A stretch of DNA of 64,000 nt, from the NCBI GenBank assembly GCA_001600495.1, contig BCKE01000081.1, positions 65,019 to 129,018 of the forward strand. The letters run 5' to 3'. Of this stretch, positions 44,789 through 46,787 are shown piece after piece (within the stretch, counting starts at the first letter, position 1; each line of letters starts with the position of its first letter). Below the pieces are notes generated by a model, which searched no databases, had not been told where the DNA came from, and saw only the letters and a list, made by a program, of their open reading frames with translations. The position numbers and the translations under genes were made by a program. The DNA is from Pilasporangium apinafurcum. Lineage: Eukaryota; Oomycota; Peronosporomycetes; Pythiales; Pythiaceae.

Positions 44789-46787
44789 ATGCTGTCGTCC
44801 AGTGTAAATAAATTTGACCATGTCGTCATAGCCCACCAGTCGCTTCATAACAAGTCGTACATCGAGCACGCACCCAGCTCGATGAGCCAGGAACGCAAGC
44901 GCGACGAGCACGAGGCTGATGCGCTAACAGAAGATACGCTCAAATACTTGACCATCACCATGAAGTGGGCGATACTCTTCCATAATTCCATCATCCAGCA
45001 AGAAGTAAACGAGCGAGTGCTGATGATGAAAAAAGTCCAGACTGAAGCCTACCACATCGCAAACCTTCATGTGCTTTGTTGTCTCCAGAACAACATCTCG
45101 CTGCCGGAACTCACCCAGATATTTTTTTACAGATGCTGTACTGGCATGCTTTTACAAGCAAATGGCAAGCCACCAAGAGCGTGCGCCGATACAAATCTTA
45201 ATGACACGCTTCTGTTCTACCGAGCGCAGCGACTATTGCTCGCAGACGAGTACTCGGCTCCGCAAAATGGCCAGTGTATCTCAATCTCTCAATGAACTGG
45301 CAAGAACTATGTTTGTGAACGTGACAAACCACATCATGTTGAACTTTGATCGACGACTCCATCGTTACATCAAGCTTTGCTATGAAAAGAATGGTGCAGA
45401 GGTGAGAGCATTGGTATCGAGCTGTTTTTACAAAGATGGAGAGTTTACGAGTAAAGAGATCGAGCTTCGTGAATGAATGGAGATGTACCCATCATCTTAA
45501 TCGAAGATAAAAGAAAATCTCATTTTCTAAGCAAAACGTATGAGATGCTGCAGTACATGAAGTTTCGAGCGTCGAAGGAACCAAAGCTGGTGGGGTGTCA
45601 TGTGCTCTCGCTGGCGCCAGTGTCGACACCCTTTGTCCCAGCGCACATCAAGATCAATACGACTGTCCTGCATGAGATGAGTACACGCATCTTGAGAATA
45701 CGAAAGATCAATGTCTTCTCCGTTACCTCAAGTGACAAGCCCAAGTCTCATCCAACCAGAGAAGAGTTTCAAGTCATGTGAGACAAGCTTTGGGAAAGAG
45801 ACTCCCAAATTCGCAAGTTCGAGACGATAAATCTTAACTTTGCGTACCAGGTTACGATGAACGGCTACAGCGCATCTTTACTCCGGCAGCGCCTCGTAAA
45901 AGAGAAAAACGAAGATATGACGGCATCTCCTAAGAATTACGTTCGCGATACCGTCGTTGGGATCGACCCTGGTATGCAGTCGCTCTGCACTGCCATTCGT
46001 GTGCAAGAAGTTGATGTGGAAGAGAAGAAAGCGCAATGCAACGAAAGAAGCAGAAGAAGGAAAGGAAGGAGAAGCACAAGCATGGTGTTTGACGCAAGCA
46101 ACCCAGTAACCAGTGGTACAATGTTCAACAGATATCTACGCGAGAGTACAGGCATCTTGCTAGGATGAACAAGTATACGTTCTGGCACGAGAATTTGAAG
46201 AAAAGAGAACATGACTATGCAAGGATCTTCCAGGCGATGTCTTCGTTCAAGACAGCGTCGTATGAGCAGTATATGACAAACGTCAAGTACGTGTGGAGAC
46301 ATTTTGACTTCTTAGTGAGCTTTTGTGGATTGCATCCATTTCGTAAATGGTGTTTTCTTCAGTCCAGATCTAGTCAGAAGGTTTGGTACATCTAGCAAAG
46401 CGGTTAGTGCACACACCGAGTCCTCAGGTTTGCATTGCCCTTGGTGACTAGAGTCGATAGAACTTCATCAAGAGTCATGTGCACGGACCCGTGAAGCGGT
46501 TCACACGTGAGTTGGCAACATCCATGACCGTACTGCATATCGACGAGTATCGCACAAGCCAGTGATGCTCCGAGTGCTACCAGCAGTTCGACAAGACACC
46601 ATTTCCGACAAAGAAAGCTGATGGAAATGCGGGCGTTAAGCTCTCCCACCAGGTTCTCTGCTGTAACAACAGCGAGTACAGAATCATATGGGAGGGAGAC
46701 ATGAATGTGTCAAAGAACATTCTTACACTTGCTATGTGTCTCCTACATGGACTTTCAAGACCATTAGAGCTACAACAAGCAGAATAG
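44789..46787 (+). pseudogene. Broken Fanzor1 gene (eukaryotic TnpB-like, RNA-guided RuvC nuclease family)
   Basis: About 2.0 kb reads as one protein once frames are followed. The helical N-terminal part (44789-45130) shifts frame in a T7 run at about 45127. The next part has ARTMFVNVTNHIMLNFDRRLHRYI (about 45300-45370). After another shift near 45474 come HVLSLAPVSTPFVP and NTTVLHEM, then an in-frame TGA at 45779 and the NGYSAS strand. RuvC-I is VVGIDPGMQSLCTA with Asp codon 45964. After a shift near 46166 come YRHLARM, SSFKTASYEQYM and HPFRKW. A further shift leads to two TAG codons near 46449 and 46458. HIDEYRTS follows at 46540-46556, then TGA 46563 before CSEC, QVLCCNNSEY, and WEGDMNVSKNILTLAM with the last RuvC Asp (46698). 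Order and motifs fit Fanzor1. It is not functional as written. Confidence 0.85.

Follow-up and report, generated by a model that had tools for sequence, protein, structure and literature searches.

The locus studied here raises the question whether a row of broken reading frames on a 64,000-nt stretch of genomic DNA (referred to as the window, taken at its full length) derives from one gene, to which family this gene belonged and how it reached its present site. Our analysis makes it very probable that the locus is a dead Fanzor1 gene that had a DNA transposon of the Tc1/mariner type as its carrier, the host being a Pythium-like oomycete.

We aligned relatives from the same genome, including an intact 655-aa Fanzor1 protein (L071), to the window by tblastn. 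Using this frameshift-tolerant search we could follow a single protein on the plus strand, starting with a methionine at 44,882 and terminating in a TAG at 46,785. The resulting pseudogene (44,882-46,787) is nearly full length and is composed of five frame segments (44,882-45,263, 45,264-45,521, 45,518-46,042, 46,105-46,383 and 46,383-46,787), the frame changing four times, and is interrupted by six stops (45,474, 45,498, 45,779, 46,449, 46,458 and 46,563). All motif segments match the one collinear protein L071, whose residue 1 lies opposite the methionine at 44,882 and which can be traced through residue 653 at 34-47% identity per segment (E values of the collinear groups 1e-42, 2.8e-30 and 3.2e-29); positions 46,043-46,104 gave no tblastn alignment to this intact relative. 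The N-terminal part, formed by the first two segments (44,882-45,521), was aligned to residues 1-209 of L071 and to the sister copy L013, the third segment (45,518-46,042) contains RuvC-I, and the last two (46,105-46,787), aligned to L071 and sister copies, contain the DEYxTS motif, the zinc ribbon and RuvC-III. Pieces of the sisters L013, L015, L012, L016, L036 and L034 are collinear with the window copy as well, and its DNA is matched at 73-96% in tens of further places in the genome. These DNA matches, together with the collinear tblastn groups of L071, argue that the protein reading is not a product of chance. An earlier sequence-only reading had described a nearly full-length, decayed Fanzor1 at this place and is borne out by the collinear alignment, except that its start at 44,789 has to be moved to the methionine at 44,882.

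The motifs named in that reading were all located at the positions it had given. GIDPG was found at 45,959-45,973, IDEYRTS at 46,539-46,559, the zinc ribbon at 46,566-46,679 (CSECYQQ at 46,566-46,586, CCNNSEY within 46,653-46,679) and GDMNxxKNIL, here GDMNVSKNIL, at 46,695-46,724, with the RuvC-III residues GDMN at 46,695-46,706; the labels RuvC-I, -II and -III follow the usage of the Fanzor/TnpB literature. Zinc ribbon and RuvC-III are present but not intact: the fourth cysteine of the zinc ribbon is changed to tyrosine, and the arginine before the last catalytic aspartate to glycine (RD to GD). The Fanzor1 motif D-x(125,275)-[TS][TS]-x-x-C4-x(5,50)-RD, as given in the available part of Bao and Jurka 2013 (PMC3627910), is incomplete in the window copy, which retains the D, the TS and the first three cysteines and has a stop between the TS and the first cysteine. 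Because of this stop and the two replacements we regard the window copy as a pseudogene, whose encoded protein can no longer be made. Pfam returned nothing relevant and no TNB match for the window copy's own pieces, a single-sequence PDB search with its RuvC-I piece found no Fanzor, and within the window Rfam gave nothing above the gathering score. RIP-type mutation was considered as the cause of decay and is not supported: for the window copy and six sisters, the dinucleotide indices lie scattered about the background value of the window.

A DNA search of the genome with 44,400-47,000 gave at least 52 matching stretches (best 40 of 319 candidates scored), the best match listed besides the window itself lying on contig C22 (91%). 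For all kinds of TnpB and Fanzor together we found at least 150 genome-wide matches to PF07282, all above the cut-off (a lower bound, as the best 150 of 852 candidates were scored). None of the 30 fetched loci of the window family, among which L009 is the window itself and L011 is partly masked, has a complete open frame, and the longest frame in the family comprises 371 aa. When the 220 C-terminal residues of L034 were used as query, two of 46 listed rows were stop-free, one of them being L034 itself (rows counted by hand if 200 or more residues aligned at an identity of 60% or higher, C-terminal third only, best 150 of 767 candidates). Intact relatives in the same genome, which the sequence-only reading had thought informative, were searched for, and L071 was found intact on the minus strand of contig C59 (C59:249172-251136, corresponding to L071:673-2637). 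A second, partial copy of L071 with 94% identity and one stop is located near a contig end (C112:279-1544); beyond it no relative above 48% occurs among the 70 matches listed (68 of 795 candidates scored). The idea that L071 is a domesticated single-locus gene was dropped because of this second copy. A further seven fetched Fanzor1 copies (L072-L078) show 93.5-95.3% mutual identity and constitute a younger family, each member having at least one interruption.

To the right, the copies of the window family share a common end, which comprises the last 26 codons and a non-coding tail up to CTGGTAATCGCCAG and beyond which the flanks diverge. In the window this right terminal repeat lies at 46,709-46,867 (plus strand), its first part encoding the last 26 Fanzor1 codons. 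Several sisters carry an inverted copy of it at their left end, giving terminal inverted repeats of ~159 bp (L011, L013, L015 in part, L018 and L020); a left inverted repeat of the window copy itself was looked for and not found. A search with 46,700-46,880 alone gave at least 40 matches (best 40 of 306 candidates scored), and six of the seven copies of the younger family show, at their right end, a weak match (76-79%) to the final 34 bases of the L015 repeat. We collected 60 ends and dropped six truncated or rearranged ones before alignment. In 35 of the remaining 54, with left and right repeats pooled, the dinucleotide TA follows directly, against a background of 4.7% of the dinucleotides in the window; the window element itself ends at ~46,867 with GCCAG, which is followed by G and TA. 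In the sister copies the left repeat borders on a C-terminal transposase remnant of mariner type, recognized by comparison with the transposase of L069, which passes PF13358 (remnants in L011, L013, L018, L019 and L020). A mariner-type (DDE_3) transposase fragment is also found in the window at 44,413-44,736 on the minus strand, with 53-54% identity to the L069 transposase. Its strand is opposite to that of the remnants in L011-L020, an arrangement seen in L012 too. In the window-family elements the DDE transposase occurs in fragments only, and among the fetched loci there was no autonomous element with both transposase and Fanzor1. The window contains another short piece of this element family, from its 3' part, at 12,388-12,654 on the minus strand (80.7% over 269 bp).

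The non-coding tail at 46,786-46,867 (plus strand) is a candidate omega-RNA/reRNA scaffold, in which case the guide would correspond to the bases after 46,867. The sequence-only reading had proposed a guide RNA at 46,790-46,960; a conserved, foldable end does exist there, but the proposed region is too long, since the element ends at ~46,867, and the covariation is not above that of shuffles. For window positions 46,786-46,870 the minimum free energy has a z of -1.7 (10 of 200 shuffles as good), and a ~10-base deletion within the tail defines a subfamily of 11 of the 54 ends, the window copy included. It is distinctly possible, though we would not call it probable, that the 3' end is conserved only as a transposase-binding inverted repeat plus coding tail and not as a guide RNA. 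Such an account would agree with the presence of the conserved sequence at both ends, as expected of binding sites, and with a mean folding z over 59 ends of a modest -1.05 for the sense strand, to which the antisense strand comes close (-0.72). It would also agree with the covariation result, which was obtained on 31 of the 54 ends with two hand-chosen structures; these ends were hand-picked, and of the 23 left out 11 have the ~10-base deletion and the rest other indels, insertions or near-duplication. RNAalifold on all 54 ends gave no pairs. In the 31 ends 83-84% of the cells pair compared to 32-49% with slid partners, for a structure that was derived from one of those sequences. The binding-repeat account is opposed by the good folding of well-preserved copies: the better preserved end of L025 reaches a z of -3.24 (none of 200 shuffles as good), and L061 and L062 reach -4.49 and -3.24, their antisense strands also reaching -2.6 and -3.8. 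It is further opposed by a similar hairpin with different bases, seen by eye in L072-L078, and by published Fanzor1 reRNAs, which according to the available part of Yoon 2023 (PMC10711439) are predicted to include TIR and TSD in the scaffold. We consider a guide-RNA scaffold at 46,786-46,867 plausible.

For the family assignment we built a profile of eight C-terminal sequences and searched it against 177,635 distinct PDB sequences. The top two matches were Fanzor1 proteins, namely those of Parasitella parasitica (PpFz1, PDB 9cf0, E 9e-4) and Spizellomyces punctatus (SpuFz1, PDB 8gkh, E 3.7e-3). The margin is not large, as E values of 0.0099 and 0.28 were reached by two DPY30-domain proteins, the remaining matches at E<=10, both of which were taken as chance. 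L071 alone matched SpuFz1 with E 2e-9 and the Guillardia theta protein (GtFz1, PDB 9cer) with E 3.7e-5; neither TnpB nor Cas12 was among its three PDB matches at E<=1, the third of which has E 0.62. Furthermore, L071 carries the full motif of Bao and Jurka (IDPG at 370, TSKLCSGC at 580 and RDVN at 628). A single-sequence PDB search with L036 found no Fanzor, so that the profile was required, and the N-terminal L013 piece had no homologue at E<=0.001 among 1689 candidates of the protein database. It is very improbable that the window gene was of the Fanzor2/TnpB type (IS607-like) instead. The zinc-ribbon domain PF07282 is common to both groups (L071 scores 28.6 bits against a cut-off of 26.3, and uninterrupted pieces of the sisters L036, L016 and L034 pass as well), and TnpB/Fanzor2-like genes (L003, L040 and L041) do occur in the same genome. 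However, on the NCBIfam model guided_TnpB (NF040570, cut-off 100) L071 and L034 reach only 28 and 26 bits, in contrast to 128 and 148 bits for L040 and L003; in addition the best PDB matches are Fanzor1 and the ends of the element are mariner-type. By its NF040570 score the window family falls outside the TnpB/Fanzor2 group. From the PDB matches to PpFz1, SpuFz1 and GtFz1 and from the low guided_TnpB scores we infer that it is a Fanzor1 family, in a genome that also holds TnpB/Fanzor2-like genes, as the sequence-only reading had supposed for the family itself.

One of these other genes (loci L040 and L005; L040:287-2359, minus strand) encodes an intact TnpB/Fanzor2-like protein of 691 aa that adjoins a DDE_3 transposase match on contig C135 and has 38 relatives at E<=0.001. 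A combination of both nuclease types was observed in L024-L038, all 15 of which are chimeric: an L003-type TnpB/Fanzor2-like 5' end passes, at a junction immediately 5' of RuvC-I, into window-family sequence, which is retained from RuvC-I on together with the window-type right end. In six of the 15 a scrap of the L003-type 3' end was also found by blastn. The left end of the chimera is sharp in the 11 copies aligned there and, judged by eye, is preceded by TA in about nine, TA being followed by (A/G)CCTTTATTCCCC; it has no match to the right repeat. With a mutual identity of 80.5-96.8% (median 85.6%, 105 pairs) L024-L038 represent an amplified Fanzor2-like/Fanzor1 chimeric element. If the scaffold were contained in both inverted repeats, every element, every Fanzor-only copy and every ORF-less derivative would provide guides from its flanks, perhaps hundreds of cassettes used in trans by few intact Fanzor1 proteins (e.g. 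L071), and the recombinant element would even have gained a guide-bearing right end 3' of the left end of another nuclease family; we regard this extended scenario as unlikely.

With respect to the history of the window copy, we found stop codons in its last third that are common to L010 and L021, and the similarity of both copies to the window ends at or near the element end. On these grounds the gene was probably dead before the three copies spread, and a part of the decay probably predates the insertion. We calculated dN/dS with stop codons excluded, after dropping two of the 30 loci for coverage and with a few rows containing out-of-frame stretches, and obtained a median of 0.37 for 28 copies compared in 375 pairs. 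The values for the window copy are 0.24-0.38 against the 25 more diverged copies and, with few changes, 0.54 and 0.87 against L010 and L021. Purifying selection on the ancestors, followed by neutral decay, would fit this pattern, and the claim of the sequence-only reading that the copy was active once receives indirect backing from the values of 0.24-0.38. That the locus was a domesticated host gene, inactivated later, and not a transposon copy has next to no probability: dN/dS below 1 between diverged copies would agree with it, but it is opposed by tens of stretches that are dispersed through the genome and have their ends, though not their flanks, in common. When alive, the element would have been moved between TA sites by the mariner transposase acting via the inverted repeats. 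By analogy with the systems described in the available parts of Saito 2023 (PMC10432273) and Yoon 2023 (PMC10711439), from which RNA guidance and the role of Fanzor1 are adopted here, Fanzor1 would have had as its guide an RNA whose transcription runs from the right repeat on into the flank, and would have cut DNA matching that flank, probably aiding the persistence of the element.

Comparable elements have been described before. In the available part of Bao and Jurka 2013 (PMC3627910), Fanzor1 is reported from mariner elements of Pythium ultimum (PUl-1 to PUl-6) with TIRs and TA duplications, PUl-1 containing a transposase and PUl-4 Fanzor only. Compared by description, the window family resembles them in its mariner-borne Fanzor1, the TIRs, the TA and the oomycete group, and differs in that the window copy is dead and that its coding sequence ends within the ~159 bp repeat of the family. 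With SpuFz1, as far as the available part of Saito 2023 (PMC10432273) describes it, it shares a homologous C-terminal domain (GDWS, DEYxTS), and its dispersed element ends without an ORF recall the guide-bearing 'ghost' loci without the gene in that paper; SpuFz1, however, is an element of a chytrid fungus with 30-nt inverted repeats for which RNA expression and cleavage are reported, whereas our family is described from sequence alone. The same difference applies to the SfAV Fanzor1, a viral element with RNA data, which resembles our family in that TIR and TSD were proposed to lie within the reRNA scaffold (Yoon 2023, PMC10711439, available part). The Fz1 proteins of Parasitella parasitica (9cf0) and Guillardia theta (9cer) match in the C-terminal nuclease part but are remote and come from other hosts. 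Our literature search, from which subscription papers were mostly excluded, gave no title of a dedicated oomycete Fanzor study. The novelty is modest, since mariner-borne Fanzor1 in Pythium (2013) and guide-bearing ghost ends (2023) are already in print. With the present data the 2013 description is widened to a genome as a whole, in which at least 150 matches to the TnpB/Fanzor zinc ribbon occur and most of those fetched are broken. A genome in which most nucleases are dead, guide-like ends are dispersed in large number and one Fanzor1 or more reads as intact would offer a natural setting for studying the role of Fanzor for transposon or host.

Two loci of the family show palindromic arrangements. 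In L010 the Fanzor copy lies between the arms of an 88-bp inverted repeat (L010:1377-1464 and 3556-3643) that is unlike the element in sequence, which gives the locus the look of a palindrome with the element inserted in its loop. L039 (C14:534500-538800) contains a palindrome between two element ends, with an identical 261-aa reading frame in both arms that presumably encodes a heat-shock factor, judging by its looks; this palindrome is either real or an assembly artefact. Equal-scoring copies on opposite strands were observed in other contigs too, e.g. C105.

The host had been placed among the oomycetes by the sequence-only reading, and the neighbouring cyclase gene (47,947-51,219) agrees with this. 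Its closest relatives are unnamed proteins (66-70% identity), followed among the named ones by Lagenidium giganteum (69% over 77% of the query), [Pythium] brassicae (68%) and Pythium oligandrum (66%) and next by P. insidiosum and Phytophthora, the best named matches from Pythium, Lagenidium and Phytophthora having 56-69%. Judged from these identities, the host belongs to the Pythium group of oomycetes. Between the pseudogene and the cyclase gene, ~100 bases 3' of the element end at 46,867, an ATG at 46,967 opens a small reading frame, for which an OB-fold match is weak and stays below the cut-off, and it is possible that the element affects the promoter of this frame.
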